Source of the DNA: a bacterium
GTDB lineage: Bacteria > Zhuqueibacterota > QNDG01 > JAFGCO01
DNA: 43,758 nucleotides
NCBI GenBank assembly: GCA_016932575.1
Contig: JAFGCO010000016.1
Span: 1 to 43,758 of the forward strand
Reading direction: 5' to 3'
A program made the translations under genes and the position numbers. Of this stretch, positions 4,746-40,419 are shown in pieces (within the stretch, counting starts at the first letter, position 1; every line of letters starts with the position of its first letter). The notes beneath the pieces were generated by a model. The model did no database searches. It was not told where the DNA came from and worked only from the letters and a program-made list of their open reading frames with translations.

Positions 4746-4850
4746 AATCGATCCTTTCAAAAAAGATGGGGAAATATGGGAAATAATGAATATAAAGGAT
4801 ATAGATGGATAGTAAGCATAGAGATAAAAGAGATATAAGGTGATTGATAT

Positions 4851-4922
4851 TATCTTTCCCTTATTCCCTTATTTCCTCTATTCCCCTTATTTCCTTATAC
4901 CCTATAACTTATACCCTATAAC
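4851..4922. repeat. Low-complexity intergenic tract with 14-bp tandem repeat
   Basis: The spacer between the two CHAT genes (4746-4922) is pyrimidine rich on the plus strand, built from TTATTCCC and TTATTTCC units. It ends in two exact copies of TTATACCCTATAAC at 4895-4908 and 4909-4922, abutting the stop codon of the second CHAT gene. A related ATAACTC repeat follows the first CHAT gene. The shared 3' flanks suggest the tandem gene duplication included downstream sequence, or that these are a dispersed spacer repeat. Confidence 0.6.
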
Positions 4923-8078: not shown

Positions 8079-8266
8079 CACATTCCCCCTGCTATTTCTT
8101 CAATATTGTACCTCATTTCCAATGAGAGAAATGACAGCAACAATGAATACGAATAAAAACATTCTTCCGTATTTTTAAAAGCAATTTCTCACGAGGCATC
8201 TGCATTCAGCCCATCCAAGACGTATGATTTTAATCATTGAATTGCAGTCTTCAAAGCCATTTTCAT

Positions 8267-18902: not shown

Positions 18903-19843
18903 AAAGAATCCTTACCGGTAATTTTCCACTCGAACACATCCACAGCGTGACGCTGCCGGTCCAAAACGAACAGCAAATGCTCATGTATGGCCACATCTTC
19001 TATCCCTTTGAAAAGAAATCCGCCTTTGGGGCTCCCTTTCAGACAAACGAGCATCCTGCCCCGGCCGTCAAAAACAACAAGTCCCGATCGCACATCCGCC
19101 ACAGCGATTCTTCCGTCCGGAAATTCACACATATCCTGAGGCCATTCAAGAACCGAAGTGCCAAATCGATAAAGATAATTACCATGAATGTCAAAAACAA
19201 AAATGGCATGGTATTCCCGGTCAGATACCAGTACACGGCTGTCCTTCGTTATAAGAAGCCGCTGCGGTGTCAAAAGGCGACCGGCTCCCGAATCGAAATC
19301 CCCGAATGAACGCTGCGGATTTCCAAGAATATCCAGTTTCAGAACACGCTGATTTTCACCGTCCAGGCAAAAAAGTTCACCCTGTGAAGACAGCGCCATA
19401 TCCAGGGGAAAACCGAATTCAAGGTTTTCCGGCCAGGTTTCGTCTGTCCGGAATGCGGCCAGATAGTGAAGGTCTTTGTCGTATCGCTGAATACGGTGGT
19501 TGTTGAAATCAGCGACAAACACATCCAGACCATTTCCGGCCCAGACTGCACATGGATGATCGAACTGCTCGGCTTGCCATCCGAATCCCCCGATTTCGGT
19601 GACAAAACGGCCCCGCGGATCGATTTTCTGAATCCGCTGATTGCCCGTATCCGCAACATACAAGAATCCCATGGGATCCACATCAATTCCCATGGGATCC
19701 AGAAATTGCCCGGCCTCGTTTCCTTTATCGCCCCAGGTGGCTATATACGAAAATTGAATGGCAGATTGCGCATATAAAGCTGAAATCAGGTTAAATAAGG
19801 CAATCCAAAACAGGCCAATCATATTTATGGGAGACCGATCCAT
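18899..19843 (-). CDS. Exported NHL-repeat beta-propeller protein
   Basis: A 314-residue protein with a signal peptide (MIGLFWIALFNLISALYAQ, following a short N-terminal extension) and about six NHL-type blades. Examples are GQFLDPMGIDVDPMGFLYVA, then DTGNQRIQKID, FNNHRIQRYD, GENQRVLKLD and REYHAIFVFD. The repeats span nearly the whole mature chain, consistent with one six-bladed propeller; no extra domain is present. A GGAGG site lies 7 bases before the ATG. Its stop codon overlaps the TTG start of the large barrel gene, so the two products are made together and may form a periplasmic propeller and outer-membrane barrel complex. NHL propellers generally mediate binding. Confidence 0.85.
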   Translation of the reverse strand: MDRSPINMIGLFWIALFNLISALYAQSAIQFSYIATWGDKGNEAGQFLDPMGIDVDPMGFLYVADTGNQRIQKIDPRGRFVTEIGGFGWQAEQFDHPCAVWAGNGLDVFVADFNNHRIQRYDKDLHYLAAFRTDETWPENLEFGFPLDMALSSQGELFCLDGENQRVLKLDILGNPQRSFGDFDSGAGRLLTPQRLLITKDSRVLVSDREYHAIFVFDIHGNYLYRFGTSVLEWPQDMCEFPDGRIAVADVRSGLVVFDGRGRMLVCLKGSPKGGFLFKGIEDVAIHEHLLFVLDRQRHAVDVFEWKITGKDSF

Positions 19844-23855: not shown

Positions 23856-26800
23856 ATGAAACGCCAAAAGCCAAATCACCTGAAATCTCCCCTCCCCACC
23901 TTGAACAATTGGTTCAAAGTTTCTCTATTTTTCATTCTCGCTTCATTTGTAACCGTTTCTTTCAAGGGATTTTCACAGGAATCCTGGAGCCAGAACTGGA
24001 TCGAAATGATCGGCTCGGACTGGAATTACATGACCGACCCGACGGGCGATCACAATCCGGCTTCTGTGGACGTGATCAACAACGGCGTGCCCCTCTGCTG
24101 TTATTATGCATCCTCAAGTTCAAGTGTCTTCTATCGTATGGCGCTTCGCGGCGATCCGATAAACGCACAAGGCGAGCTGGACCAATACGCATGGATGGCC
24201 CAGATCGATGTGGCCGATGACGGCAATTCCAATATCGATGTCACAGTAAGAGCCGAGGGCATCAACGAGCGCCTCAGAACCTATAACGGATCCGGAGGCA
24301 TTCTCTGGAACGTGGATGATCCCATCAGCGCCGGGTATGTGCAGGCCTATCAGAGCGGCAGCATCTGGTATCTTGAAATGCAGGCCCCCTACTCTGCGCT
24401 TGGCGGCATCACCCGGGACACACCGGTACGATTTTTCTTTCACACCTCCACCACAGAAACAAACGATATCAAAGACGCAACCGTGCCGTCCGCAACCATC
24501 TCCGGTGCGTTTGCCGAATCCGGAACCACCACACTGGGCGGAGGCGGCGGTTACGGATTTATGTTCGACTCGGATGACACCAATCCATACTCCAATGCAG
24601 GAACCTATGACAGTGGTGAGCTGGTCTATATCGAAGGCTACGGCTGGCCGGCATCCACAACCCTGAATGTGCGCATCAAAAATTCCGGCGGCTCGATCAT
24701 GTGGTCCGGCACGGTCAGTTCGAACGGCAGCGGCGATGTCAGTTCCACAGCCAGCTGGACCGTCGATTATTCAGCCGCCTCCGGACTCTATACCATTGCC
24801 GTGCAGAGCCCCAAAGACGGTCAGTATTATAATTATGACGATTTCACCGTGGTACAGCTTATGGAACCGGAAATCAATATCGTGGGCAACAGTGTGACCA
24901 TTGCGGACGGTGATGCGTCTCCCTCTTCATCAGACGATACGGATTTCGGTATCATTGATCTGAATACCGGCACGGAAGATCATATTTTTACGATCCAGAA
25001 TATCGGCAATACGGATCTGACACTTTCCGGATCGCCGGCCGTCAGTATCAGCGGATCGCATGCATCGGATTTTACGGTTACACAGCAGCCCGCATCGCCG
25101 GTCGGTTCCGGAAATTCAGTGACTTTCACGATCCGCTTTGACCCTTCGGATTTGGATGTCCGATCGGCCACGGTCACAATTTCGAATACCGACTCCAATG
25201 AAAATCCCTACGATTTTGCTATTCAGGGCACCGGCCAGCTCATGCCCGAGATGGATGTGACCGGCAATGCCATTTCCATTGCGGACGGAGACAACACGCC
25301 CAATTCCACGGATGAAACCTATTTTGGTGATGTGGCCACGACCGGTGTCACCCAGGTGCATACCTTTTTTATTGAAAATGACGGTTCGGCCGATTTAATT
25401 CTGTCCGGATCTCCGATGGTGACGATAAGCGGAACGCATGCGTCGGATTTTACGGTCACACAGCAGCCGTCTTCACCGGTTGCTTCCGGAGGCAATACCA
25501 GCTTTATCATCACATTCGATCCTTCGGCACTGGGATCGCGTTCGGCCACAGTGTCCATCTCCAATAATGATCTGGATGAAAATCCTTATACATTTGCCAT
25601 AGAGGGCACTGGCGTCAGCAACGGCTCGCCCTTCTCATGCAGTTCCCGGTTTTATCATTTTTACGGCAGCGGGACCTTTGCCTATTTAAACACCGGCTCA
25701 AATCCCTTCTCATACAGCACATTCGGATCTGCCGGATATGCGATCAATGCGTTGGGGTACAACCAGGAAGACGGGATGATGTACGCGGTTTCAGGCAGCA
25801 ACATCATCCGCATTGATGCCAACGGGATTGTGACACTGCTCTCTGTGACCTTGCCGTTTGGTGCCAATGCCGGTGATTGCGACAACAGCGGCAATTACTA
25901 TTTCATTAATACGGGCGGCGGCGAGGCAGCAAAATATGATGTCAGTTCCAACACTGTCTCTACATCAGGACTGAGCGGATCATTCCCGGCTCAGGATATG
26001 GCTTTTATATCAGGCAGTTTTTATGGCGTCAATGGTACAACCCTATATCAATTCAATCCGTCCGGCAATTCCGTATCCAGCAGTGCCATCACAGGGACCC
26101 TGTCCAGTGAGAGCGCACTAAATCCTGGGGCATGGAGTGCCGCATGGACGGCCGCAGACGGCTATCTTTATGTAGTGAATCAGAGCAGTCACCGATTTTA
26201 TAAAATCGACGTCAGTACCGGATTAAGTTTTTACGCGGGCACGGGTTCGGGCTCGCTCAGCAACAGTGACGGGGCCTCCTGCCATTCGGCATCATCTCCC
26301 CTGCCAAATAATGGTTCCACAGGAAATTTTGTCTGGCAGGATTATGACAATAACGGCATTCAGGATGCCGGTGAACCCGGTCTGGGAAATGTGACGGTTA
26401 CACTTTATCGCCGGGGGGGTACGCAAATATCATCCACCACCAGCGCCTCCGACGGATCCTACAGCTTCTCCGGTATTGCACCTGAACAGTATTATTTAAC
26501 TTTCTCCAACTTGCCTGCCAATTATTCCCTTGGCCTGCAGGATCAGGGCGGAGACGATTCATCGGACAGCGATCCGGATGCATCGACCGGCCAAACCGCC
26601 AGTTTTATCATCGATGCCTATGAAACGGACAATACCCGGGATGCGGCGTGTGTAACCACAGGCGTGGGAAATTTTGTGTGGAACGATCTGGACACAGACG
26701 GCATCCAGGACGCGGGCGAACCCGGCGTAGCCAATGTGACCGTGGCACTCCAGCTGGGAAATGGAACAGATGTATCCTCAACCACAACAGATGCGGACGG

Positions 26801-29558
26801 ATATTATCAATTCATTGGTCTGGCCTCTGGAACACAATATCAGCTTGTTTTCTCAAACCTGCCCGGCGGTTATGATTTCACCTCCAAAGATCAGGGTGGA
26901 GATGACACGGTTGACAGTGATGCCAATCCGTCCACTGCCAAGACATCCAAATTTACACCAGTCAGCAATGTGTTTGATCCTGCCTGGGACGCAGGCGTGA
27001 TCCAGACAGTGTTCCCGGAAATCAATTTGCAGGGCAACAGCACAGATATTCCGGACGGCGATACCACCCCATCGTCCGCGGATGACACAGACTTCGGATC
27101 TGCAACAGTGGCTTCGGGTACAGTAGATCATACGTTCACAATTCAGAATACCGGCAGTGTGGATCTCTCGGTCTCCGTCAGCATCACAGGCACGCATGCC
27201 GTTGATTTTACGGTCATCGCCAATCCCCTCAGCCCGGTTTCCGGAGGCAGTTCCGCAACATTCACCGTCCGGTTTGATCCCGGCGAATCGGGTGTTCGGT
27301 CTGCCACAATCAGCATCACCAACAATGATCCCGACGAAAATCCCTACGACTTTGCCATTCAGGGAACGGGCCTGGCCCCCGAAATCGACGTGCAGGGCAA
27401 TTCAGTATCAATCGCAGATGGTGACGACACACCGGATCCGGGAGACGATACCGATTTCGGCCCTGCTGATATCACAACCGGCACTGTCATACATACATTC
27501 ACGATTGAAAATTCCGGAACCTCAAACCTTGATCTGACCGGTACGCCCATCGTACAGATTTCGGGAACTCACGCCAGTGATTTCACGGTCTCACAGCAAC
27601 CCGCATCGAGCACGGTCGCCGGTTCCGGTACCGTTACGTTCCAGGTCACTTTCGATCCGGGTGCCACCGGGCTGCGAGAAGCGGCCATATCGATTGCCAA
27701 CAACGACTCGGATGAAAATCCCTACAATTTCAGCATTCAGGGAACCGGCACCAGCGGTCCGGAAATGGATGTGCAGGGCAAAGGCGTTTCCATCGCAGAC
27801 GGAGATGTGACGCCTTCAACCGCGGATGATACCAATTTCGGCACGGTGAATATTGCAGTGGGATCCGTCAGCCGGACGTTTACCATAGAGAATCTCGGAT
27901 ACGCGGATCTGAACTTAACCGGCACTCCTCTGGTGGCTCTCAGCGGAGGCACAGATTTTTCCATCAGCTCACAGCCCGCTTCCTCGACAATCAGCAGCGG
28001 CAATACCGTAACTTTTGTGGTGAGCTTCAATCCCGCTTCCATCGGTGTACAGACCGCGACCCTCTCTATTGACAACAATGATGCGGATGAAAACCCCTAT
28101 ACCTTCACCGTTCAGGCAGAGGGCGTCACCGAACCTGAAATGGATATTCTGGGGAACGGAGTTGAAATTGCGGACGGAGACAACACACCTGACATAAGTG
28201 ACGATACGGACTGGGGCGCCGTGGATTTATCGGCCGGATCGGTGACGCATACATTGACCATTCGTAATGAGGGCAATGCGGATCTTTCATTGACCGGAAC
28301 ACCGATTGTGGCGATCAGCGGAAGCAGTGATTTCACGATCAGCACACAGCCCGCCTCAAGCACGGTCAGCGCCGGCGGCGGAACGGAAACCTTTATCATC
28401 AGTTTCAATCCTTCATCCACGGGCGTTAAATCCGCCACGGTCAGCATCAGTAACAACGATCCGGATGAACATCCCTACACTTTCGACGTCCAGGGAGAGG
28501 GCATCTCTGTTCCTGAAATGGACCTCAGTCAGGCAGGCACGCCGATTGCCGACGGCGGCACATACACATACAGCAATACTGAAGTGGGTTCCACCCGGGA
28601 TATCATTTTCACCATCAACAATACAGGCAGTTCCGACCTGACTTTAACGACGCCTCTGAGCATCACAGGCGCCGACGCCGGTGAATTCAGCATTCAGGCC
28701 CAGCCGGCAGGCCCAGTCACCGGCGGCGGCAGTACGACCTTTACGGTTCGTTTTGCGCCCACCTCCGCAGGAACGAAAAATGCCCTGATTTCCATTGCCA
28801 ACAATGACAGTGACGAAAACCCATACGATCTGAATCTTCAGGGTACGGCAACAGTGCCGGAAATGGATGTACTGGGAAATGGTGTTGTCATCAGCGACGG
28901 CGACACCACGCCGGATGCCGCGGATCATACGGATTTCGGCAGCATCGCTGTCAGCGCCGGAGCCGTCAATCGTACCTTTACCATCCGCAATAGCGGCACG
29001 GCGGACCTTTCCCTCACCGGCACTCCGCTGGTTTCCATCAGCGGATCCGGAGAATTCACAATCAGCACGCAGCCGGCGGGCAGCACCGTATCGAGCGGCG
29101 GCGGAACCGTGACCTTTGTCGTCAGTTTCAATCCTTCAAGCACGGGATCAAAGACAGCGACAATATCCATAGACAATACAGACAGCGATGAAAATCCCTA
29201 TACATTTGATATTCAGGGAACCGGAGACGCCGATCCGACTCCGGTTCTTGTGCTCTCCAAATCCGCAGATAAAGCCTCGGCAGTGCCGGGCGAAGCAGTC
29301 ACCTATACCATTGACTATGAAAATACCGGTACCGGCGATGCCACGGCCATCACTATCCTGGAGCCGATTCCGGCCAATACAACTTTTGTTCAGGGATCGA
29401 TCACAGCCGCAGGCATGACCGTTACCTACAGCCACAACAACGGCGTCAGTTATGATGGTTCTGATACGGCGCCGGTGACCCATATCAAATTTCACCGGGC
29501 TGCCGCTTTATCAGCCGGCAGTTCCGGATCGATTATATTCAGCGTGGAAATTGATTAA
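23856..29558 (+). CDS. Giant exported choice-of-anchor-D / SdrD-B / DUF11 surface protein
   Basis: About 1900 residues. A signal peptide ends near SFKGFSQ. The N-terminal domain (about 40-330) is unassigned. Two choice-of-anchor-D repeats start near residues 337 and 462, each opening PE(I/M)(N/D)-x2-GN and followed by ADGD-x2-P. A propeller-like segment lies at about 586-818. Two SdrD-B-like domains follow near 822 and 936 (GNFVW-x-D-x2-x-x-GIQDAGEPG). Six more anchor-D repeats start near 1052, 1173, 1301, 1425, 1551 and 1666, and a DUF11 domain closes the chain (about 1791-1900). The open frame extends upstream to 23736, but the ATG at 23856 gives a proper signal sequence. There is no T9SS sorting domain. 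It is the first gene of a five-gene plus-strand cluster and is likely a long extracellular filament or adhesin. Confidence 0.82.
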   Translation: MKRQKPNHLKSPLPTLNNWFKVSLFFILASFVTVSFKGFSQESWSQNWIEMIGSDWNYMTDPTGDHNPASVDVINNGVPLCCYYASSSSSVFYRMALRGDPINAQGELDQYAWMAQIDVADDGNSNIDVTVRAEGINERLRTYNGSGGILWNVDDPISAGYVQAYQSGSIWYLEMQAPYSALGGITRDTPVRFFFHTSTTETNDIKDATVPSATISGAFAESGTTTLGGGGGYGFMFDSDDTNPYSNAGTYDSGELVYIEGYGWPASTTLNVRIKNSGGSIMWSGTVSSNGSGDVSSTASWTVDYSAASGLYTIAVQSPKDGQYYNYDDFTVVQLMEPEINIVGNSVTIADGDASPSSSDDTDFGIIDLNTGTEDHIFTIQNIGNTDLTLSGSPAVSISGSHASDFTVTQQPASPVGSGNSVTFTIRFDPSDLDVRSATVTISNTDSNENPYDFAIQGTGQLMPEMDVTGNAISIADGDNTPNSTDETYFGDVATTGVTQVHTFFIENDGSADLILSGSPMVTISGTHASDFTVTQQPSSPVASGGNTSFIITFDPSALGSRSATVSISNNDLDENPYTFAIEGTGVSNGSPFSCSSRFYHFYGSGTFAYLNTGSNPFSYSTFGSAGYAINALGYNQEDGMMYAVSGSNIIRIDANGIVTLLSVTLPFGANAGDCDNSGNYYFINTGGGEAAKYDVSSNTVSTSGLSGSFPAQDMAFISGSFYGVNGTTLYQFNPSGNSVSSSAITGTLSSESALNPGAWSAAWTAADGYLYVVNQSSHRFYKIDVSTGLSFYAGTGSGSLSNSDGASCHSASSPLPNNGSTGNFVWQDYDNNGIQDAGEPGLGNVTVTLYRRGGTQISSTTSASDGSYSFSGIAPEQYYLTFSNLPANYSLGLQDQGGDDSSDSDPDASTGQTASFIIDAYETDNTRDAACVTTGVGNFVWNDLDTDGIQDAGEPGVANVTVALQLGNGTDVSSTTTDADGYYQFIGLASGTQYQLVFSNLPGGYDFTSKDQGGDDTVDSDANPSTAKTSKFTPVSNVFDPAWDAGVIQTVFPEINLQGNSTDIPDGDTTPSSADDTDFGSATVASGTVDHTFTIQNTGSVDLSVSVSITGTHAVDFTVIANPLSPVSGGSSATFTVRFDPGESGVRSATISITNNDPDENPYDFAIQGTGLAPEIDVQGNSVSIADGDDTPDPGDDTDFGPADITTGTVIHTFTIENSGTSNLDLTGTPIVQISGTHASDFTVSQQPASSTVAGSGTVTFQVTFDPGATGLREAAISIANNDSDENPYNFSIQGTGTSGPEMDVQGKGVSIADGDVTPSTADDTNFGTVNIAVGSVSRTFTIENLGYADLNLTGTPLVALSGGTDFSISSQPASSTISSGNTVTFVVSFNPASIGVQTATLSIDNNDADENPYTFTVQAEGVTEPEMDILGNGVEIADGDNTPDISDDTDWGAVDLSAGSVTHTLTIRNEGNADLSLTGTPIVAISGSSDFTISTQPASSTVSAGGGTETFIISFNPSSTGVKSATVSISNNDPDEHPYTFDVQGEGISVPEMDLSQAGTPIADGGTYTYSNTEVGSTRDIIFTINNTGSSDLTLTTPLSITGADAGEFSIQAQPAGPVTGGGSTTFTVRFAPTSAGTKNALISIANNDSDENPYDLNLQGTATVPEMDVLGNGVVISDGDTTPDAADHTDFGSIAVSAGAVNRTFTIRNSGTADLSLTGTPLVSISGSGEFTISTQPAGSTVSSGGGTVTFVVSFNPSSTGSKTATISIDNTDSDENPYTFDIQGTGDADPTPVLVLSKSADKASAVPGEAVTYTIDYENTGTGDATAITILEPIPANTTFVQGSITAAGMTVTYSHNNGVSYDGSDTAPVTHIKFHRAAALSAGSSGSIIFSVEID

Positions 29559-29569
29559 CAGGAGGTCCC

Positions 29570-30052
29570 ATGAAAAGCCTTAGGATTTTAATGATATTCA
29601 GTCTGCTGCTCACGGCCGCATCATTGCCGGCTCAGGGCGGCCAGCCCAAACTGGAAATCGAGATTCGGGAACGTAAAATGAACCTGACCGAAGCAGAAAA
29701 AAACGGTGCGGATATTGTGTATACACCCGGTGATACGATCGAATATACGGTTATTGCAAAAAATACTGGAGACGGCATCATGACGAAACCCTCGATTGTG
29801 GATCCGATTCCCCAGGGCGTGGAATATATCGAAGATTCGGCCCGGGGGGAAAATTGCCGGATTGTCTTTTCCGTGAATTACGGCCTGCGCTATTCTGTCT
29901 GGCCTGTGATGGTCATGGCAACCACGGAAAGCGGCGCGAAAATCGAACAGCCGGCGAAAACGGACAAAATCACCCATATCAAATGGCTGGTTCAGGAAAA
30001 CATACCGGCCGGCGGAGAAAAACGGCTTTTGTTTCAGGTGGTGGTCAAATAA
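29570..30052 (+). CDS. Small exported single-DUF11-domain protein
   Basis: A 160-residue protein: a signal peptide (about residues 1-21, ending LPAQ) and one DUF11-like beta-sandwich (GDTIEYTVIAKNTGDGIM at about 53-70, then VDPIPQGVEYI). It begins 11 bases after the giant protein's stop with a perfect GGAGG site. Its domain matches the closing domain of the giant protein in layout, including the T-HIK segment before the last strand. It could be a pilin-like subunit, a cap or a chaperone-like partner. DUF11 domains in other bacteria can form internal isopeptide bonds; I cannot confirm the bond-forming residues here. Confidence 0.78.
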   Translation: MKSLRILMIFSLLLTAASLPAQGGQPKLEIEIRERKMNLTEAEKNGADIVYTPGDTIEYTVIAKNTGDGIMTKPSIVDPIPQGVEYIEDSARGENCRIVFSVNYGLRYSVWPVMVMATTESGAKIEQPAKTDKITHIKWLVQENIPAGGEKRLLFQVVVK

Positions 30053-30116
30053 ACTGAAAATGAGACAGAACCAATGAACCATAGATACAAACAAACAAAA
30101 AAAAGGAGGATGCCTT

Positions 30117-30188
30117 ATGAAATCCGATCAGCCACACGGCGTATCGAACAATCACGATCCGCCCCGGAGCTTACGTACGACGCAGTAA
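30117..30188 (+). CDS. Possible 23-residue small ORF
   Basis: A strong AAAAGGAGG lies 7 bases before an ATG at 30117 that opens 23 codons (MKSDQPHGVSNNHDPPRSLR then TTQ) ending in TAA at 30186. It sits in the 190-base gap between two DUF11 genes. The peptide is hydrophilic, with no signal peptide. The good ribosome binding site is the only support; it may be the remnant of a duplicated gene start, since the next gene is preceded by a similar CAAGGAGG. Confidence 0.35.
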   Translation: MKSDQPHGVSNNHDPPRSLRTTQ

Positions 30189-30244
30189 TTTTAAACACAA
30201 ACCGAAAGAAAACAAATGTTTCATATTTTCAAGGAGGATTCATC

Positions 30245-31951
30245 ATGAATCGCAAGACCATTTTTCTACTCATAACGCTGGCGGCCTTCGGCTTTACAGC
30301 GTTGATGTTCGCGGCCGGCACACCGGCGGGAACAACCATCTCAAACATTGCCTACGGCGGCTACAGCGATGCCAACGGCAATGTGATCGCTGATGTGGAT
30401 GACTCCACACCGAGCAGTCCCACAGAACGCATATCTTCAGGAACGGTCGAAATCGAAGTCGCCCAGAAGTATGGTCTGGATGTCAGTCCGGATGATGCCC
30501 AGGATATTCCTCGAAACGGCACGGTGACCTATGCGGTGACTGTTGAAAACACCGGAAACGGCAACGACACCATCGGGCTTTCACAAGTGACAACACCATC
30601 GGATGGCAGCACGTTTACCGTGCATATTTACCACGACACGGATGGCGACGGAGTCTGGGACGGTGCCGGTACAGAACCCGAAGTGGCATCAACCGGCGTG
30701 CTTGTCGCGGACGCCACCTATGATCTGGTGGTTGTGGTCAGCGTAACCGACGGAGTCCAGGGTGAAACAGGCACCACGGTTGTGACCGGTACCTCAAGTG
30801 ACGGTACCACAACAGAAACCGCCACTCTGGTATCAACCGTGCAGGCCGCGCTGATTACCGGTACACTGGCACCGGATGCGACAAGCAAGGCACCCGGCGA
30901 CATTATCACCTACACCGTGACCATCAACAACAGCAACGATACCGATTCCGAAACAGCCTATAATGTCAGAGCCTATCTGCCGGTTCCGGCCAACTGCACC
31001 TGGGTGGGCAATGTCACAGGCGGATCGGATCCGGGCGGAGCCGGAACTTCCACAGTCACCGGGTCCGATATTGCTGCCGGTGGAAGCGCAACCATCACCT
31101 ATCAGGTGCAGGTGAACGCCGGCGTATCCGCAGGAACCACCATCGACAATCAGGTGGACGTGGATTACCAGGACAGCACAGGAGATGACTATACACAGGT
31201 CAATCTCTATGCCAACGCGGGCACAGGCGGCCGGATTACGGTCAGTGAGACCACCTCATTTACTACAGCCATCACACCCGCCTCTCAATCAGGCGATCCC
31301 GGCGACGAGATCGTCTACCGGATAGCCGTCAACAACACCGGCAACGGAGACGACAGCTATGAAATCAGTCTGAATTCAAGCACCCAGAGCTGGACCTGGA
31401 CCTATTACCGGGATGACGGCGACGGAACATGGGAAGGCTCGGGCACGGAAACCCTGGATACCAATACCGGAGCCGTTTCTTCCGGCGGCACTGCCTATAT
31501 GTGGGCGGTCCGGACCATCGCGGCCGGCACAGACGATGAAACCGAGGATGTCTCGGTGTTCAGGATGACATCGGATGATGACAGCAATGAAACCAGTGAC
31601 GAAACCGGAACCACAACCGTGACCGCTCCGATATTGTCCCTCAGTAAAAGCGTGGCAGTGGTTGGCGGCGGAGATGCGGTTCCGGAAGCCACACTGCGTT
31701 ACACCATTACCATTGACAACAGCGGAACCGGAGATGCCAGTGATGTAATCATCAAGGATGCGATTCCGGCACACACCTCTTATGATACAGGCACAATGAC
31801 CATCGACGGATCCGGTGTCACGGACGCCGACGATTCACCCGTAGATGAAAGCCAGTATGATACCAGCGGATCGCCGACCTGTATTTTCGGGGTGGGCACA
31901 GTAGCGGCCGGCGCATCGATCGACTGTACGTTCGATGTGATCATTGACTGA
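30245..31951 (+). CDS. Exported DUF11/NEW3-type multi-domain surface protein
   Basis: A 568-residue protein. The ATG at 30245 has AAGGAGG 7-8 bases before it and opens a good signal peptide ending LMFAAG; the longer open frame from 30074 lacks these. After the start motif TPAGTTISNIAYGGYSD come about four CARDB/DUF11-like beta-sandwiches near residues 55, 200, 330 and 455, each with a GDxxxYxVxxxNxGN-like strand pair. The chain ends in a strand (CTFDVIID) like those of its two upstream neighbours. The TPAGT-x-I-N start is shared with the next gene product, so the two are related. It is acidic, rich in Thr, Asp and Gly, and low in Lys: typical of a long extracellular chain. Confidence 0.8.
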   Translation: MNRKTIFLLITLAAFGFTALMFAAGTPAGTTISNIAYGGYSDANGNVIADVDDSTPSSPTERISSGTVEIEVAQKYGLDVSPDDAQDIPRNGTVTYAVTVENTGNGNDTIGLSQVTTPSDGSTFTVHIYHDTDGDGVWDGAGTEPEVASTGVLVADATYDLVVVVSVTDGVQGETGTTVVTGTSSDGTTTETATLVSTVQAALITGTLAPDATSKAPGDIITYTVTINNSNDTDSETAYNVRAYLPVPANCTWVGNVTGGSDPGGAGTSTVTGSDIAAGGSATITYQVQVNAGVSAGTTIDNQVDVDYQDSTGDDYTQVNLYANAGTGGRITVSETTSFTTAITPASQSGDPGDEIVYRIAVNNTGNGDDSYEISLNSSTQSWTWTYYRDDGDGTWEGSGTETLDTNTGAVSSGGTAYMWAVRTIAAGTDDETEDVSVFRMTSDDDSNETSDETGTTTVTAPILSLSKSVAVVGGGDAVPEATLRYTITIDNSGTGDASDVIIKDAIPAHTSYDTGTMTIDGSGVTDADDSPVDESQYDTSGSPTCIFGVGTVAAGASIDCTFDVIID

Positions 31952-31989
31952 TAGTTTTAAATAATTAAGGATAGGCATTCGGGAAACCG

Positions 31990-34900
31990 TTGAGCAGAAT
32001 TAAACAAAATTCTCTCTTTATTACTATAGGGTGTCTCTTGATGAGCCTTGCCATGGCGGCCCGGAGTCAGACTCCGGCCGGCACCTCGATTCGGAATACC
32101 GCCGTTCTTGAATATAACGGCGGCAGGGGTGTGGTGCATACCCTCACGTCCGATGAGGTGACCATTATTGTTGGTGAGGGTGCATTGCGGCTCGTCAAAT
32201 CCGCGGAAAAAACCGAGGTCGGTCTGTGGGATACACTGGTCTATACCTTCGAAATCCAGAATATCGACCATGTGCCTCTGACGAACATTTCGGTTCGCGA
32301 CACCCTGCCCCGGATGCTTCGTGTGATTCATACAGAACCCTCCGCTTTGGTAGCGGGCAATACTGTGGAATGGCAGATTCCTTTGCTGGCAACAGGTGAG
32401 ACACGCATCCACAAACTGTCCTGTCAGGTGAAAAAAACCGCCCACCAGGAAACCTTTAAAAACAGCGCGGTTTATTCGGCAGACGGCGGGATCCGGGGAA
32501 GATCGAACCGGGTGAGCACAACCTGGCTTCCCTGGCCCGAAGCTGTCCTGGAGAAATCGGCCGACCTCGAAGCTGTTTATATCGGCGACACACTGACCTA
32601 TTTCCTCAGTGTCGCCAATACGGGGCCGATGCCCCTGTCGCAGATTCAGGTGGCCGATTCATTGCCTGACGGTTTTCAATTCTTGGATGCATCATCGGAC
32701 ATCGACCGGTCAGAGCAAAAACTGATCTGGAATATCGAAACACTGGCTCCGGGTACCGGTCGGTCTCTGTCATTCCGCGGTATTGTCACTGCCGATGTTT
32801 GCGGAGACACTCTGCACAATACCGCCTCTCTTTCAACATTCGAAGGAGCACAAAGCAGGTCAGGAACGGTCACTGTCTGTCACGGCCACGGCGCCGGGCT
32901 TGAAATCCTTAAATTGGCCCCCGATTCGGTTTTCTGGGCCGGGGACACGCTGACCTATGATCTGATACTCACCAGCTCGGGTGTCCGTACCGGCCGTGAT
33001 GTCACGGTGCTTGATACGCTTCCGCCGAATCTGGCTTTCGTGTCGGCTACGCATCAGGGACACCATCACAATCAGATTGTATCCTGGCATCTCGGAGATC
33101 TGCCTGCCGGTTATCACGATACTTTGCGGGTCGCTGCCTGTGTCCGGATCCCGATTGAGGATAACACCACTATCAACAATGAAGTCTGGGCCAGAACCGC
33201 TTTCGGTGCCCGGGACAGTTCCAGCTGGGAAATCCGGGTCCATTCAAAGCCGGACGCATCACTGAAAAAGACCGTGAATCTCGAATCCTGCTCTACGGGA
33301 GATACATTGACCTACACATTGCAGGTTCGTCATACCGGCACAACACCAGAGATAAACCAGTTGACAGTGACGGATACCCTGCCAGCCGGTCTGTCCTGTC
33401 TGAATGCCTCTCAAAAGGTGGATACAACCGGTGGAATTCTCTCATGGCACATCAACAGGCTGGGATATCAGAAAACCGAAACACTTGAATTCAAGGCCCT
33501 GGTAAATACACAGATGAGCGGGCAGACATTGCGGAACACGGCTGTCTTAACCGCTGACGGGATGGAAGAGAAAACGTCCTCGGCCGAATCTGAGTTCCAT
33601 GGCAATGGTGTCGGTATTGAAATCATCAAAGAGGCGGCCGATTCCCTGTACAATGCAGGAGATACGTTGACCTATGACCTGATTTTAAGCAATGGCGGAC
33701 TGCGCGCAGGGCATTCGATTGTAGTGAAGGATACGCTGCCGGATGCACTGGAATATCTGGCATCCACGCACAAAGGGATGCACAAAAATCAGATTGTCAC
33801 CTGGCGGCTGGGAGATCTGGAATCCGGCTATCATGACACCTTGCGTGTCACTGTAAGCATCCGCACGCCTGTCGAGGATCAGACTGTGGTAAACAACGAA
33901 GTCTGGGCATATGCGTCTCAGGGCGCGCAGGACAGTTCGAACTGGCGCATTGTGGTTACATCACTTCCCGAACTGGTGCTGAAAATTGACGGACCGTCCA
34001 TTGCATCACCCGGTGATACCATTACCTACAGGCTGATCTATTCAAACATCGGTACGGCCACGGCATTCGAACCTGTTGTGAGGGATACGCTTCCTGATGT
34101 TCTGGCTTACGTAGACGCCAGCGGCGAGCATATTTACATCTCTGACGCAAAAGCGGTACACTGGCATCTGCCGCCGTTAAGCCCGGGAGATCAGGATACG
34201 CTCTACTTATATGCCCGGGTGCATGATGATGCTTCGAACGAGGATGAAATCGTGAATTCGGCCTGGCTTTCATACAAACAGGCGTCAAGGGTGGCTATTG
34301 CCACATGTGTGACTGAAACCGTGCCTCCGGGAAAAATGCTTTTCGCATACATTACCGTGGATAAAAAAATGGCCGCCGAATATGACACCCTGACCTATTG
34401 CATCACATACGGATCATTGAACCGGGATATTCAGGATACCGTGCATGTATTCAATGATCTGCCTTATGAAGTGGAATGGATTGATAACTGCTGCATTAAC
34501 AAGCTGTCGGCGAAACATTTCGCGTATGACCCGGTGCTGCACAGCATTCATTACACCCATATCGGATTACGCGCCAATCAGCCGGATTCGATTTGTTTTA
34601 AGACAAGGGTGCGTCATCCGATACTGCCGGGCGTTCAATTGATTGAAAACCAGGCGCTGGTATACACGCACATCGATACGGCCCGGACCGTCGATGATCC
34701 GCGCACGGATTCGGTCACCCGGCTGATCAAACCGTTCATTGAAATTAAAAAGACTGTGAACAGAAAGGTCTCACAGGTCGGCGATATTTTAAGCTATACG
34801 GTGACGATCAGAAATAAAAGCAGTATCACATCCTTAAATACACTGACGATCCATGATTTAATTCCGGAAGGATTCAGATATCAAAAGGGAACATCGATCC

Positions 34901-35472
34901 TCGATTCGATCCAGATTGAGAATCCGCAACAGAGCCCGCAGGGAAAACGAATTCTCATGCGCTGGGATTTAAATACTCCCCTGAAGCCTGAACAGAGTAT
35001 GCGCCTGAAATACCGGCTCATTGTGGGATTGTCCACCCGGCAGGGCGAGCATGAGAATCTGGTCAGCGCCTCCGGGGTCACGCCCGATGGATTCGAAATC
35101 GGATCCGACGAAGCCAGTGCAGCAGTATTGGTGCGTCAGGGCGCCTTCGACGAAAGAGGATTTATTTTCGGCAAGGTGTATGAAGATCTGAATCTCAATG
35201 GACTGCATGACCGTCAGGAACCGCAGCTCGAGAACATCGAACTGATTATGGAGGACGGCACTCGCGTGAAAACCGATGAATTCGGCAAGTATTCCATTCC
35301 CAATGTTGAGCATGGACAGCATGTGCTCAGGCTGAATGAACATACATTGCCCAAAAACAAGCGCGTTCTGACAAATGCCTTTGAGCATTTGGAGGATCCG
35401 AAATCCCAGCTGATCATGGTGCCGCCGGGCCATATGGTCAAAGCCAATTTTGCGGTGGAAACAACCGAGTAA
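31990..35472 (+). CDS. Exported protein with about eight DUF11 repeats and a C-terminal SdrD-B-like domain
   Basis: A 1160-residue protein starting at TTG (31990). No in-frame ATG gives a signal peptide of useful length, while the TTG start gives MSRIKQNSLFITIGCLLMSL, ending ARSQ. After a TPAGTSIRNTAVLEY opening come about eight DUF11 repeats, each with a GDTLTY-like strand and a DTLP-like turn (examples near residues 75, 195, 310, 430, 545, 665, 780 and 920). The last 110 residues form an SdrD-B/prealbumin-like domain (GKVYEDLNLNGLHDRQEP). It ends 8 bases before the barrel gene's ATG. The domain order (DUF11 repeats, SdrD-B, then barrel) suggests the two products work as one unit, perhaps a plug or stalk with its outer-membrane pore. 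Confidence 0.82.
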   Translation: MSRIKQNSLFITIGCLLMSLAMAARSQTPAGTSIRNTAVLEYNGGRGVVHTLTSDEVTIIVGEGALRLVKSAEKTEVGLWDTLVYTFEIQNIDHVPLTNISVRDTLPRMLRVIHTEPSALVAGNTVEWQIPLLATGETRIHKLSCQVKKTAHQETFKNSAVYSADGGIRGRSNRVSTTWLPWPEAVLEKSADLEAVYIGDTLTYFLSVANTGPMPLSQIQVADSLPDGFQFLDASSDIDRSEQKLIWNIETLAPGTGRSLSFRGIVTADVCGDTLHNTASLSTFEGAQSRSGTVTVCHGHGAGLEILKLAPDSVFWAGDTLTYDLILTSSGVRTGRDVTVLDTLPPNLAFVSATHQGHHHNQIVSWHLGDLPAGYHDTLRVAACVRIPIEDNTTINNEVWARTAFGARDSSSWEIRVHSKPDASLKKTVNLESCSTGDTLTYTLQVRHTGTTPEINQLTVTDTLPAGLSCLNASQKVDTTGGILSWHINRLGYQKTETLEFKALVNTQMSGQTLRNTAVLTADGMEEKTSSAESEFHGNGVGIEIIKEAADSLYNAGDTLTYDLILSNGGLRAGHSIVVKDTLPDALEYLASTHKGMHKNQIVTWRLGDLESGYHDTLRVTVSIRTPVEDQTVVNNEVWAYASQGAQDSSNWRIVVTSLPELVLKIDGPSIASPGDTITYRLIYSNIGTATAFEPVVRDTLPDVLAYVDASGEHIYISDAKAVHWHLPPLSPGDQDTLYLYARVHDDASNEDEIVNSAWLSYKQASRVAIATCVTETVPPGKMLFAYITVDKKMAAEYDTLTYCITYGSLNRDIQDTVHVFNDLPYEVEWIDNCCINKLSAKHFAYDPVLHSIHYTHIGLRANQPDSICFKTRVRHPILPGVQLIENQALVYTHIDTARTVDDPRTDSVTRLIKPFIEIKKTVNRKVSQVGDILSYTVTIRNKSSITSLNTLTIHDLIPEGFRYQKGTSILDSIQIENPQQSPQGKRILMRWDLNTPLKPEQSMRLKYRLIVGLSTRQGEHENLVSASGVTPDGFEIGSDEASAAVLVRQGAFDERGFIFGKVYEDLNLNGLHDRQEPQLENIELIMEDGTRVKTDEFGKYSIPNVEHGQHVLRLNEHTLPKNKRVLTNAFEHLEDPKSQLIMVPPGHMVKANFAVETTE

Positions 35473-35479
35473 ATCAACC

Positions 35480-38400
35480 ATGAAACGACTGCATCGACAT
35501 ATTTTTTTCACGCTTGTCTGGATGACTGCCGGGCTCATGCCCTTATTCGGCCAGATGATCATTAAAACACCTAAACAGAATGCCGTCATTGAAAAACGCC
35601 GGATTGCCGTCACTGTTGTCGGCAGGACGGGCGCCAAAACCTGGCTTTATGTCAATGAAGCGCTCGCCGATTCCGGAGAAATACGGATCGACGGGAAATA
35701 CGACTTTTTAAACATCCCGGTACCCGAAGGTCCGGTAGAATTGCGAGCTGAAGCGATCGGCGCGGGCAGCCGCATTTATAAGGCAATCAGGCGGGTGCAT
35801 ATCGTGGGCCGGCCGGATACCCTGATCACAGATCAAAACCGGATCAACCTTCCTGCGGACAGTCAATCCGTGCAAAACATTCATGTCAAAGTGCAGGATG
35901 CCTGGGGATATGCCATTCAGCGTTTGAAAACGGCCACCGTGATGCTGACTAAAGGCTCACTGCTGGATACAGATATCGACTCGCTTTCACCCGGATGTCA
36001 GGTGCCGGTCGAGAACAGTGAATTTGTATTTACCCTGCGCGCCTCTTCGGCAGTGGGACGTGAACAGGTGATTATCAAAGTCGGGGATCTCAGTCATGAA
36101 ATCCCGGCACGCTATACCACACCCCTGACCCCGCTGATGCTTGTGGGCTCTCTGGATGCAGCGGTTTCTGCTGCAGAGCTGGGCGATAAAAAACATGGCA
36201 CGCCAAAATTTACAGTGGCAGACTGGACGCATCAGGAAGGCGATGTGAGCCATGTGCCTGTGAGCGGACGGCTGGCGTTCTATGCCAAGGGTGCGCTCAT
36301 GAAAAAATATCAGGTCACGGCCTCTTATGACAGCCGGAGGACCAAAGACAACCAGCTTTTCAGAGATCTGGACCCTGATCAGCAGTATGCATTGTACGGC
36401 GATGCCAGCACACTCACCTATGACGCACAGACCCAGTCCAAATTTTACGGACGCATCGAACGGAATGAATCTTTTGTGAGTGTTGGAGACTTCAATACGG
36501 AATTCCGGTCCACAGACTTCACGAAATACGACCGCTCTTTCACCGGACTTTTCAGTAAAATTCATGCGGGCAGACACACATTCACCGGATTTGCCACACT
36601 CAATGACCGCACAATGAAACTGGACGAAATCCGGGGAGAAGGCATTTCGGGATATTATTATCTCACCGGAACCCGGATCACCCTGAATTCCGACAAGATC
36701 CGCATTGAAACGCGGGACCGGTATCATCCGGAAAAAATCATCCGCTCCGATGAGCTTGTGCGGTTTATGGATTATGATATCAACTATGTGGACGGCACCC
36801 TGATGTTCAAGCAGCCGGTTCCAAGCGTGGATTCCCAGGGCAATCCCGTTTATATCATTGCCGCTTATGAGCGCCAGGCCCGGTCGGACAAGTCACTGAT
36901 CGGCGGTCTGCGTTATGAGGGAACAGTAAAAAATCTCCGGTTCGGCTCAACCCTGATCATGGAAGAAAAAGAGCCTTCCAATTTCTATATGACCGGTCTG
37001 GATGCGGAACTGCCGGTCACACGATGGCTGCGAATCAGGGGGGAATTGGCTCAGACCCGGAATTCGGATTTCACCGAAACCCGGCAGACCGGCAACGCCT
37101 ATGCTGCTGAAATGGACCTTACACCCCTAAAATCCATTCACCTGAACGGATATTACCGCAGCGTGGATGATGATTTTTCAAATCCGTCCCAGACGGGAAG
37201 CCGGTTCGAAGTGGGCACGGAAAAAGTCGGCACCAAAAACTCCCTGGATCTGGGCAAAGCCGGAAAAATTCATACAGAACTTTACCGTCAGCTGAACGAT
37301 ATCGGCACCGTCAATGAATATCATGTGCAGGTGGCAAATACATTTTATGAATATGCATTCAATAAAAAGACCACTGCCCGGCTGGGATACGAAGATGCAG
37401 AGCGGAAAAAAACGGGACAGGATTCAATCGAAGTGCGCGGATACCGGTCGAAAATGATCACGGGACAGGTGGCCCATCAATGGACCGAGCGCCTGTCTAT
37501 GGAAATCAGGCACGAGCAGAATCTGGCTAAAGGAGAAACAACACTGCCGACGGGCACATCTGTGGGCGCGATCTATGCCCTGTCCAAAAAACTGAAGCTC
37601 TTTTTAAAACAGCGCTTCCTGGATACAGACAAAAGACGTACCCAGACCATTTTCGGAATTGATACAAAAGTCGGAAAACGCACCCGGATCACGGGAAAAT
37701 ATGAAATCGGAGGCGCATCAGGTGAGGATTTAAGCCGGGCAACCATCGGACTGCGGAATCAGTGGGAAGTCCGCAAGGACCTGACCCTGAACATCGCGCT
37801 CGAGAGCACGGCCACCATGGATTCCCTGGAAGTGCCGACTCCCGATCACAATGCGGTTTCCGTGGGCATCGAATATCTGCCTGACCGGCCGTGGAAATCC
37901 TCGGCAAAGTTTGAGCTGATGCAGGATAAAATCGTACGCAAGCATGTCATTACCCTGGGCAGTGAATTCAAGGTATTCAGCGGTCTCAGCGCCATCGGAC
38001 GGCTGGAGTATGCCGGTGCGAATTATCTGGACACTTCTGATGAAGTATGGAACCGGGGCAATTATCAGCTGGGTGTGGCTTTCCGTCCGGAACAGCATGA
38101 TATGTTCAACGGCATCGCAAAACTGCAGTTACTGACAGATAAGAACACACACGCAGCACCCAAAACCAGGCTCGACCGCCTGATTACGGCAGCACACGGA
38201 CACTGGCAGGCCTCACCCAAACTGGGCATTGGCTTCCGCTTTGCCCTGCGCCGCCTGCTGGATGAAGAAACCGGATTCTTTTCCAGCAAAACCACGACCT
38301 CCCTTTACTCAATCCGGGCTGATTACAAACTGCACCGCCGCTGGACAACAGCCATAGACATGCGTCTCGTCATGCTCTCCCCCATCGGCCAGATGAAAAC

Positions 38401-38572
38401 AGGCGCCTCTTTCGAAGCCGGCTACCTGCTGAAAAAGAACATGCTGGTGGGCGCAGGGTACATCTTCAAGCAGCTCGACGATCCGGATTTTTCGTTCACG
38501 GAATACAATTACGGCAACATCTATCTGGTGCTGCGCATGAAGTTCAGCGAAGATATTTTCAACTGGAGATAA
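35480..38572 (+). CDS. Large outer-membrane barrel of the DUF11 surface cluster
   Basis: About 1030 residues from the ATG at 35480 (the frame is open from 35450, inside the previous gene). A signal peptide ends FGQ. The N-terminal region (about 20-230) holds beta-sandwich-like domains. A transition block follows with YGDASTLTYDAQTQSKFYGR, SVGDFNTEF, KYDRSFTGLF, GYYYLTGTRI, RIETRDRYHPE, and YDINYVDGTLMF with GNPVYIIAAYE (about 300-470). The remainder consists of alternating aromatic-capped strands to a C-terminal FNWR, as expected of an outer-membrane barrel. Motif style matches large barrels found with DUF11 proteins in other phyla and more distantly the 1132-residue barrel in this window. 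It is last in the cluster and is followed by a terminator. I infer a role in exporting or anchoring the upstream proteins. Confidence 0.78.
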   Translation: MKRLHRHIFFTLVWMTAGLMPLFGQMIIKTPKQNAVIEKRRIAVTVVGRTGAKTWLYVNEALADSGEIRIDGKYDFLNIPVPEGPVELRAEAIGAGSRIYKAIRRVHIVGRPDTLITDQNRINLPADSQSVQNIHVKVQDAWGYAIQRLKTATVMLTKGSLLDTDIDSLSPGCQVPVENSEFVFTLRASSAVGREQVIIKVGDLSHEIPARYTTPLTPLMLVGSLDAAVSAAELGDKKHGTPKFTVADWTHQEGDVSHVPVSGRLAFYAKGALMKKYQVTASYDSRRTKDNQLFRDLDPDQQYALYGDASTLTYDAQTQSKFYGRIERNESFVSVGDFNTEFRSTDFTKYDRSFTGLFSKIHAGRHTFTGFATLNDRTMKLDEIRGEGISGYYYLTGTRITLNSDKIRIETRDRYHPEKIIRSDELVRFMDYDINYVDGTLMFKQPVPSVDSQGNPVYIIAAYERQARSDKSLIGGLRYEGTVKNLRFGSTLIMEEKEPSNFYMTGLDAELPVTRWLRIRGELAQTRNSDFTETRQTGNAYAAEMDLTPLKSIHLNGYYRSVDDDFSNPSQTGSRFEVGTEKVGTKNSLDLGKAGKIHTELYRQLNDIGTVNEYHVQVANTFYEYAFNKKTTARLGYEDAERKKTGQDSIEVRGYRSKMITGQVAHQWTERLSMEIRHEQNLAKGETTLPTGTSVGAIYALSKKLKLFLKQRFLDTDKRRTQTIFGIDTKVGKRTRITGKYEIGGASGEDLSRATIGLRNQWEVRKDLTLNIALESTATMDSLEVPTPDHNAVSVGIEYLPDRPWKSSAKFELMQDKIVRKHVITLGSEFKVFSGLSAIGRLEYAGANYLDTSDEVWNRGNYQLGVAFRPEQHDMFNGIAKLQLLTDKNTHAAPKTRLDRLITAAHGHWQASPKLGIGFRFALRRLLDEETGFFSSKTTTSLYSIRADYKLHRRWTTAIDMRLVMLSPIGQMKTGASFEAGYLLKKNMLVGAGYIFKQLDDPDFSFTEYNYGNIYLVLRMKFSEDIFNWR

Positions 38573-38682: not shown

Positions 38683-38717
38683 CGGGATGCATAACGCGTC
38701 CCGCCTGTTTTTTTTTG
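38683..38717 (+). terminator. Rho-independent terminator of the surface cluster
   Basis: The stem CGGGATGC/GCGTCCCG (8 pairs with one G-T) and an ATAAC loop are followed by CCTG and an unbroken run of nine T. It lies about 110 bases after the barrel gene's stop and closes the plus-strand cluster. Confidence 0.85.
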
Positions 38718-38982: not shown

Positions 38983-39798
38983 CTATAATTCTGCATCATC
39001 AATATCATAGGGGCTCATCACCTCTTTTGGCTGCGGATGTCTCAGGGTTTGTGTGTAAATCATGGTTGTTCTGACATCACTGTGGCCCAGTAATTCCTGA
39101 ACTGTCCGAATATCATACCCGGCTTTTAAAAGATGGGTGGCAAAACTGTGCCTGAATGTATGCGGCGTTGCCCTTCTGGGTATCTCTGCCTCGCGTACTG
39201 CTTTTCTGACCGCTTTCTGTACATGCGTTTCATGCAGATGAAACCTGCGATAAGACTTGGCTCCCGGGATACGTGTCAGCTTTTTAGCAGGAAAAAAGAA
39301 CTGCCATCTCAATTCCTTTGCCCCGCTTTTATACTTTTTGTCTAACAGATCCGGCATAAAAACACCGTCATAATCATCTTTCAGATCACGTGTATGCAGT
39401 TTTTTAACCCGTTCAAGATGTTCCTTCATCTCAGGGATGATTTTTTTGGGTAACAATACCTTTCTGAACTTCCGCCCCTTGCCGAATATAGTCACAATCC
39501 CTTCTTCAAAATCAATATCCTGAACACGAATATTAAGCCCCTCGGTCAATCTAAGTCCACACCCGTAAAGCAGTTTGACGACAAGGTCATACGGATACTC
39601 AAGATGATTAATTATCGTATCGATCTCTTTTCTTGAAAGCACCGAGGGCACATATTTGGTTCTTTTGGCTCTGGGTATTCCTTTAAAATCACCAAAATCT
39701 TTATTTAATACATGCCTGAAAAAGAATAAAAGTGCATTAAAGGCCAGATTTTGAGTCGATGCAGACACCTGTTTCTCTACCCCGTGAGATAGCTCCAC
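38983..39798 (-). pseudogene. intI: Integron-type tyrosine recombinase, C-terminal part (disrupted)
   Basis: About 265 residues of real integrase sequence carry the whole catalytic domain. All residues expected for activity are present: Arg83 (GCGLRLTE), Lys108 (GKGRKFR), His213 and Arg216 (HTFRH), His239 (LLGHSD) and Tyr248 (TTMIYT), numbered from the GTG at 39798. The segment between the second and third boxes (about 135-195: LHTRDL, VFMPDLLDKKY, WQFFFPAKKL, RRFHLHETHVQKAV) is the extra region that marks integron integrases rather than XerC/XerD. The first eight residues are read from an inserted element. The N-terminal half is the separate open frame at 39871-40419, in the same reading frame. 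Removing 108 bases (39778-39885) would restore a continuous gene with the expected junction HLAV-EKQVSASTQN. The split gene is probably inactive. Confidence 0.85.
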
Positions 39799-39884
39799 AT
39801 ACGATTTTTTTTAAATTGTAATAGGTAATCCTAAGGATTTTTTGACATGATGTATATCTAATGATTTAAATTATCTCACGGGGT
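39779..39884. mobile_element. MITE-like insertion inside the integron integrase
   Basis: The 106-bp segment is bounded by perfect 13-bp inverted ends, ACCCCGTGAGATA (39779-39791) and TATCTCACGGGGT (39872-39884). The interior is A+T rich and noncoding, with a small internal palindrome near AATCCTAAGGATT. It interrupts the integrase codons between HLAV and EKQVSAST and brings in two in-frame TAA stops. With one extra base at each side the insertion is 108 bp, a multiple of three, so the halves stay in the same frame. No target duplication can be defined with certainty. The parent transposon is not recognised. Confidence 0.75.
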
Positions 39885-40419
39885 GAACCGCAAGATGTGT
39901 GATAAAATCCTTTGCATCCTGTGAATCGATCAGATCCGGTGATTTGCTTTTTAAAAAGGTCTGAAAAATCCGTGTCCACTTCATATAGGTCTGTAATGTT
40001 TTTCTGGAATACTGCCTTAATCTGATTTCATTGTCCAGCAGTTCAAGTTCCTTTTTCCAGCTCTGTTTTTTAGTAATATCCGGTTTCTTGATTGATTCAG
40101 TCTTTGGCTTTTGAATGTTCCTTTTATCGGACACAATAGCAGTGGTTTTTTTTATCTTATATGATTCAATCAATTGATAAAACAAAGTAATTGCTTTATT
40201 TGCTTGTTCAATCTGCTGTCCAGACTGTTTTTTCTGTTTGAGCTTGTTTTTAAATAATGGTAAACTGTTATGAGACGAACCTTGATGGGAATATTTTTCA
40301 CAGAAGTCCAGATAATATTTCAACCATTTGAGGTAATAAGGAATTTCATTGGCAAGGATATTTTGTTTATTCAGAAAAGTAACATAGGGTGTTTTTATTT
40401 TTTCAGGAATGGGTTTCAT
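39871..40419 (-). pseudogene. intI: Integron-type tyrosine recombinase, N-terminal part (disrupted)
   Basis: 182 codons, of which the last four (HPVR, then stop) come from the inserted element. Residues about 130-178 are the SAM-like core-binding domain (LRQYSRKTLQTYMKWTRIF, then DAKDFITHLAV). The preceding 120 residues are an N-terminal extension with a LPLFKNKLKQKKQSGQQIEQ stretch, as found in long-form integron integrases. GGGGGAGG lies about 7 bases before the ATG. Upstream is a palindrome of GGTAAAYATTC half-sites that may control expression. On its own this fragment lacks all catalytic residues. Confidence 0.8.

Follow-up and report, generated by a model that had tools for sequence, protein, structure and literature searches.

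Five neighbouring genes, p1 to p5, in the window (the whole stretch of DNA analysed, 43,758 nucleotides of contig JAFGCO010000016.1, assembly GCA_016932575.1, from a bacterium of the KSB1 phylum) probably encode a strand-complemented and likely self-ligating surface fibre together with its outer-membrane base. An earlier, sequence-only reading had proposed a dedicated secretion and anchoring machine for a long extracellular fibre based on gene order and domain content. This five-gene finding is real and better than earlier stated. At the level of sequence, incomplete last domains, orphan N-terminal strands and a Lys-Asp-Asn triad lift the long fibre beyond a deduction from gene order.

The gene unit and its relatives

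Five exported, co-directional ORFs are present at positions 23856-38572 of the plus strand, separated by short or negative intergenic gaps and followed by the only strong plus-strand site of a terminator scan (Table 1). Using ATG start codons at 23856 (p1), 30245 (p3) and 35480 (p5), the earlier lengths of about 1900, 160, 568, 1160 and 1030 residues are reproduced. The previously assigned composition of four beta-sandwich proteins and one large barrel agrees with the choice_anch_D, SdrD_B and DUF11 domains found and with the structural model of p5, and the barrel gene indeed directly follows a DUF11 protein ending in an SdrD_B domain, albeit a weak match. The T9SS sorting domain used elsewhere in the window is absent as well: a Pfam scan of the five proteins reported no Por_Secre_tail, which occurs outside of them at 10892-12373 in the window, with about 150 copies in the genome alongside a SprA. 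Export of p1-p5 by the T9SS was therefore rejected.

Table 1 Features of the p1-p5 cluster (positions refer to the window)
Feature	Position	Strand	Description	Basis
p1	23856..29558	+	1900 aa; N-terminal region, 8 choice_anch_D, 2 SdrD_B, C-terminal incomplete DUF11	Pfam scan
p1 acceptor domain	29241..29558	+	DUF11 stopping after F strand; Lys 29259-29261, catalytic-position Glu 29361-29363	
p2	29570..30052	+	160 aa; small exported DUF11 protein, acceptor-type end, no Lys at isopeptide position	
p3	30245..31951	+	568 aa; three DUF11-type repeats, N-terminal donor strand, C-terminal acceptor	AAGGAGG upstream of ATG
p3 donor strand	30317..30364	+	GTPAGTTISNIAYGGY, mature N-terminus; donor Asn 30344-30346	
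p3 acceptor domain	31628..31951	+	Lacks last strand; Lys 31646-31648, Asp 31757-31759	
p4	31990..35472	+	1160 aa; donor strand, seven DUF11 repeats with internal Lys-Asp-Asn triads, no acceptor	
p4 donor strand	32071..32115	+	TPAGTSIRNTAVLEY; donor Asn 32095-32097	G-strand profile, 12.3 bits
p4 SdrD_B-like domain	35161..35400	+	Weak, C-terminal; precedes barrel, barrel-fused in most relatives	
p5	35480..38572	+	1030 aa; signal peptide, small beta domains, giant barrel	
p5 predicted barrel	36254..38548	+	About 36-38 strands	AlphaFold2
p5 plug-like segment	36608..36835	+	Conserved, EIRGEGISGYYYL ... DYDINYVDGTLMFKQPVPS; inserted after about six strands, common to SprA	
Terminator-like hairpin	38683-38703	+	Rho-independent type, T run	Terminator scan

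The cluster is surrounded by the T9SS-tailed protein, CHAT-TPR genes, a FIST/kinase/regulator set and an integron integrase. Two CHAT-TPR proteins of about 1050 aa each are encoded in tandem at 1596-8081 (minus strand). The integrase at 38986-40419 (minus strand), whose C-terminal part scores 319 bits with TIGR02249, is split into two ORFs near profile position 56, and the break lies within an AT-rich stretch between the inverted repeats CCCGTGAGATA/TATCTCACGGG (about 39775-39885) that resembles a small inserted element.

When 11 other genomes of the order were compared, three of them, all from different families (G004, G008 and G002), proved to contain p5 relatives with 55-61% identity. All three keep the order p1-p2-p3-p4-p5 with unrelated flanks, the p2 homologue of G008 having been found in a whole-genome search for acceptor domains. 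Since the same five-gene order persists despite different flanks, the cluster represents a unit rather than a coincidental arrangement.

Searches of GTDB contigs yielded nothing with a single barrel sequence, and a 9-row alignment contained no stretch conserved enough, but a 5-row alignment worked and its scan returned 412 barrel relatives in GTDB species genomes. These belong to KSB1, Ignavibacteria, Bacteroidota, Krumholzibacteriota, Geobacterales, many Acinetobacter, Gallionella and cyanobacteria, as well as Nitrospirae, Aerophobetes, Lentisphaerae, Persephonella, Brocadiia, Opitutaceae and others. Eighty loci were fetched, and the 78 with a readable barrel ORF form the basis of all fusion and neighbour counts. 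DUF11 or SdrD_B is fused to the barrel in a single ORF in 66 of these 78 loci and located next door in another 11, counts that, like those of ends and residues given below, are inflated by related species (many Acinetobacter) and do not represent independent events. The single locus having neither is a 3.9 kb contig fragment. In contrast, DUF11 was detected in only 1/89 ORFs of at least 250 aa more than 6 kb away from the barrel. Both the conserved co-occurrence (77/78) and the single-ORF fusion of the 1160- and 1030-residue products, which the sequence-only reading had named as checks, are thus borne out, and a barrel without DUF11 neighbours, its refuting case, is the exception. An example is a 2008-aa gene product from an Acinetobacter haemolyticus plasmid, annotated as a DUF11 protein, the C-terminal half of which covers p5.

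A typical operon consists of genes for a small DUF11 protein (~170 aa), a DUF11 rod (~900 aa) and a DUF11-SdrD_B-barrel fusion (~2000 aa), often followed by an OmpA-family gene and then a large DUF11 protein. The window cluster is a split form with separate p4 and p5, in which the large protein (p1) stands first. In the Persephonella form (L097, 4035-12622), the separate anchor ends OmpA-like and the barrel protein starts SPOR-like according to our own reading of the sequence; these segments would place the anchor-barrel junction in the periplasm and hint at attachment to peptidoglycan.

The barrel p5

No Pfam or NCBIfam family matches p5 above cut-off. In its AlphaFold2 model (44 sequences; pLDDT 80, pTM 0.68), small beta domains, which are Big_1/invasin-like in relatives, are followed by about six strands, the plug-like segment (residues 376-446) and about 32 further strands. 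SprA is the top match in Foldseek, and the plug-like segment aligns with SprA in a remote hhalign match over 104 columns (E 8e-5), while the p5 region is absent from the TIGR04189 matches of a whole-genome search that did recover the true SprA. Judged from sequence and model, p5 is a distant SprA relative. With VIA-align, FimD ranks first (Z 16.7) and SlpA second (Z 15.6) with porins close behind, and the FimD/PapC rows near the top of the list (Z 12-17) stand just 1-2 Z above unrelated porins. Hence, the fold comparison fits an export barrel without identifying one; p5 most likely acts as exit pore and anchor at once.

It seems unlikely that the barrel is instead a structural anchor, S-layer protein or nutrient porin like Deinococcus SlpA, with the DUF11 proteins reaching the surface by another route. 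The rank of SlpA (7zgx, 8agd) in VIA-align and a Pfam SlpA_C match of one p5 relative would agree with such a function, but it accounts neither for the frequent barrel-anchor fusion (66/78 loci) nor for the regular presence of the barrel alongside proteins with the incomplete ends described below, and no further dedicated exporter was apparent in the clusters.

The plug-like segment is also common to a second barrel of the window (15507-18902, minus strand; E 1.6e-8), a 1132-aa protein with a partial SprA match that adjoins an NHL protein (18902-19843, minus strand). This pair recurs in the phylum together with a third outer-membrane-like gene (~580 aa) at L022, L023 (beside ribosomal-protein genes) and L024, and constitutes another uncharacterised SprA-like barrel family. 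Distant same-phylum matches (L005-L010, L022-L024) represent a different, NHL-adjoining barrel family and were set aside.

Incomplete ends, donor strands and the Lys-Asp-Asn triad

The strand that follows the penultimate one in a complete DUF11 domain has the consensus APAGTITNTATASY in the G-strand profile. Proteins p1, p2 and p3 stop just before this strand, their last residues ahead of the stop codon being IIFSVEID, LLFQVVVK and CTFDVIID, respectively, and p3 and p4 begin, past the signal peptide, with precisely the strand that is absent from these ends. As an iterated DUF11 profile shrank to the F strand, acceptor and donor ends were counted separately. An acceptor end was defined as a last DUF11 domain stopping at its F strand, at or at most 5 residues from the stop codon. 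At barrel loci, such ends are found in 83 of 90 large DUF11 ORFs upstream and 24 of 31 downstream of the barrel, in 30 of 57 small DUF11 ORFs (6-8 residues in most of the others shown) and in none of 77 anchor proteins. Control loci of the same phylum, fetched by DUF11 alone, contained 17 DUF11 ORFs with a stop, three of which have acceptor ends, all belonging to barrel clusters. None of the 14 non-barrel DUF11 ORFs of the phylum has an acceptor end, many carrying T9SS/FlgD-like tails instead, and none of 11 has an Asn donor (one chance motif). The T9SS-like tails found at the ends of other DUF11 proteins from the phylum are missing in those of the cluster, which speaks against the other refuting case of the sequence-only reading, namely substrates of another known secretion system. 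Additionally, when nine whole genomes were searched with the acceptor-domain profile, most of the strong matches were located at the barrel cluster.

Donor strands were scored over the first 120 residues, at a threshold of at least 5 bits, with a profile built from the internal G strands of DUF11 domains, KSB1 sequences being left out of its training. Positives comprise 48/77 anchors and 40/71 large upstream ORFs, versus about 1% of shuffles, as well as 0/54 small and 1/38 downstream ORFs. Within the window, p4 and p3 score 12.3 and 6.5 bits, p2 and p1 only 1.9 and 0.3 bits. By motif scoring, an Asn-type donor start is present in 50/51 scored shaft-type proteins, and any donor motif in 1/54 small and 1/38 downstream proteins. 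Cyanobacterial loci fit this donor/acceptor grammar poorly.

In a DUF11 crystal structure (9ifr), Lys715 and Asn806 are joined by an autocatalytic isopeptide bond, close to which lies Asp748 (PMC12617251). The profile of six complete p4 domains matches 9ifr with an E value of 9e-6, and their invariant K7, D42 and N96 map onto Lys715-Asp748-Asn806; by this mapping, the Lys-Asp-Asn triad is present in the complete DUF11 domains of p4. The isopeptide Asn of complete domains sits on the last (G) strand. Acceptor ends are without this Asn because the chain stops, and the donors supply it. An alignment of 31 diverse p3-type proteins with a mean column identity of 28% has 14 invariant columns, which include the donor Asn10 and the acceptor residues Lys444 and Asp481. 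Acceptor ends carry Lys and Asp/Glu in 50/54 shaft-type and 51/66 tip-type proteins, and the Lys+Asp pair is missing in 53/54 small p2-type proteins.

Across loci, an anchor donor Asn is matched with an acceptor Lys+Asp in 44 pairings. In all ten Geobacterales cases, the anchor donor has His and the acceptor Glu in place of Lys and Ser, Thr, Ala or Glu in place of Asp, which on sequence grounds is a correlated loss across two genes, seen in one lineage only. Geobacterales loci with this Asn-to-His exchange (L045, L048, L057, L058) also encode barrel proteins extended by ~450 aa at the C-terminus and an upstream protein without donor, and represent a simplified, probably non-covalent variant. 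Some anchors from Krumholzibacteriota, L106 and L114 have Ser, Ala or Val for the donor Asn opposite acceptors that keep Lys-Asp; hence, the anchor link is not necessarily covalent everywhere.

A different role of the incomplete C-terminal DUF11 domain, as a sorting signal read by the barrel in the export of separate adhesins that do not polymerize, has a low probability in our view. Acceptor ends occur on nearly all putative substrates and never on the barrel-bound protein, the genome also has a T9SS, which works by C-terminal domains, and p5 is remotely related to SprA, all of which would agree with such a signal; it leaves unexplained why p3- and p4-type proteins start with exactly the absent strand, and why the donor Asn is retained or lost in step with the acceptor Lys+Asp. 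Completion in cis, i.e. an orphan strand filling the acceptor of its own chain (a cyclised monomer) or capping its first domain without any fibre, is still more improbable, for although pilins that stay monomeric are known to complement themselves and the AlphaFold2 monomer of p3 models the donor with fair confidence (residues 7-10, pLDDT about 82, valid for the strand state only), p4-type proteins have a donor without acceptor and p1-type proteins an acceptor without donor, so that at least these two types must pair in trans.

Proposed assembly and comparison with known systems

In the favoured reading of a strand-complemented fibre, the groove of each acceptor, a DUF11/CnaA-like domain without G strand, would be filled by the donor strand of the next subunit. 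A head-to-tail order would result, in which p1 (acceptor only) is proposed as tip or adhesin, p3 (donor and acceptor) as the repeated, polymerising shaft subunit, and p4 (donor only) as base, i.e. anchor and terminator. The latter would be held by p5, the barrel that most relatives carry in fusion with a p4-type protein. Acceptor Lys and Asp/Glu may react with the donor Asn to give an inter-subunit isopeptide bond, like the triad inside complete DUF11 domains. For p2-type proteins, having the acceptor shape but no Lys, a role as non-covalent cap or guard that reversibly covers donor strands before assembly is our guess. The giant SprA-like barrel p5 with its plug-like insert would provide the exit pore and the anchor.

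Chaperone-usher pili (FimD, FimA, FimH) combine an acceptor-only tip adhesin with shaft subunits composed of an N-terminal donor and an incomplete Ig fold, and their outer-membrane barrel carries a plug insert behind roughly the first six strands. The polarity and grammar of p1-p5 are alike, here as a grammar of sequence alone and in another domain family. While the subunits of those systems are pilins, the cluster uses DUF11 subunits, a base subunit that is barrel-fused in most relatives, and the Lys-Asp-Asn triad, and the latter suggests covalent joints, unlike in chaperone-usher pili. No PF00577 usher is present in the genome (E. coli control positive), no sequence homology between p5 and FimD was detected (hhalign probability 0.1), and none of the window proteins scanned has a Pfam match to a periplasmic PapD-like donor-strand chaperone. 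With usher, chaperone and homology tests failing, identity with chaperone-usher systems was rejected, the proposed working principle being alike.

Archaeal threads of Sulfolobus (Saci_0406, PMC9715654) likewise form a head-to-tail fibre of donor-strand type, for which isopeptide bonds between subunits have been proposed, so the principle has precedent. They differ in being archaeal, without outer membrane, in an Asp24-Asn57 bond between subunits n and n+2, and in an unrelated subunit family. DUF11/CLIPPER fibrillar adhesins (9ifr, PMC12617251) share the domain family and the Lys-Asp-Asn isopeptide chemistry, but form intramolecular bonds within a single chain that has an OmpA-like anchor, and incomplete terminal domains, donor strands and a barrel are not part of their description. 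The T9SS translocon SprA has in common with p5 a giant barrel and the segment around the plug-like motif; p5 is half its length, and the cluster proteins lack the T9SS tail. In type V autotransporters, an N-terminal passenger and a C-terminal barrel share one chain, an order that would also suit the fused relatives, whereas the barrel is far larger here and a Pfam scan gave no autotransporter match for the barrel relatives. Foldseek searches with the p3 model retrieved generic Ig rods only.

Literature searches in open-licence papers found no description of this DUF11-barrel system. The five-gene kit, as yet uncharacterised, occurs in many unrelated Gram-negative bacteria. More tentatively than for the window cluster itself, we consider it possible that a widespread, undescribed secretion and assembly system of Gram-negatives exists in which a giant SprA-related barrel, mostly fused to its own terminator subunit, exports DUF11 subunits that form a donor-strand polymer welded by spontaneous isopeptide bonds between subunits, in effect a natural polymer of SpyTag/SpyCatcher type, with the donor strands guarded by an acceptor protein that lacks the Lys. 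Should this hold, an unrecognised fibre system built of DUF11 parts would be common to environmental Gram-negatives from many phyla (KSB1, Krumholzibacteriota, Geobacterales, Acinetobacter, Gallionella, cyanobacteria, Aquificota, Planctomycetota and Opitutaceae), and a role would be explained for many DUF11 proteins. It would represent a new kind of donor-strand polymer, independent of those of the chaperone-usher pathway, and, moreover, a source of natural peptide/protein pairs for covalent ligation.
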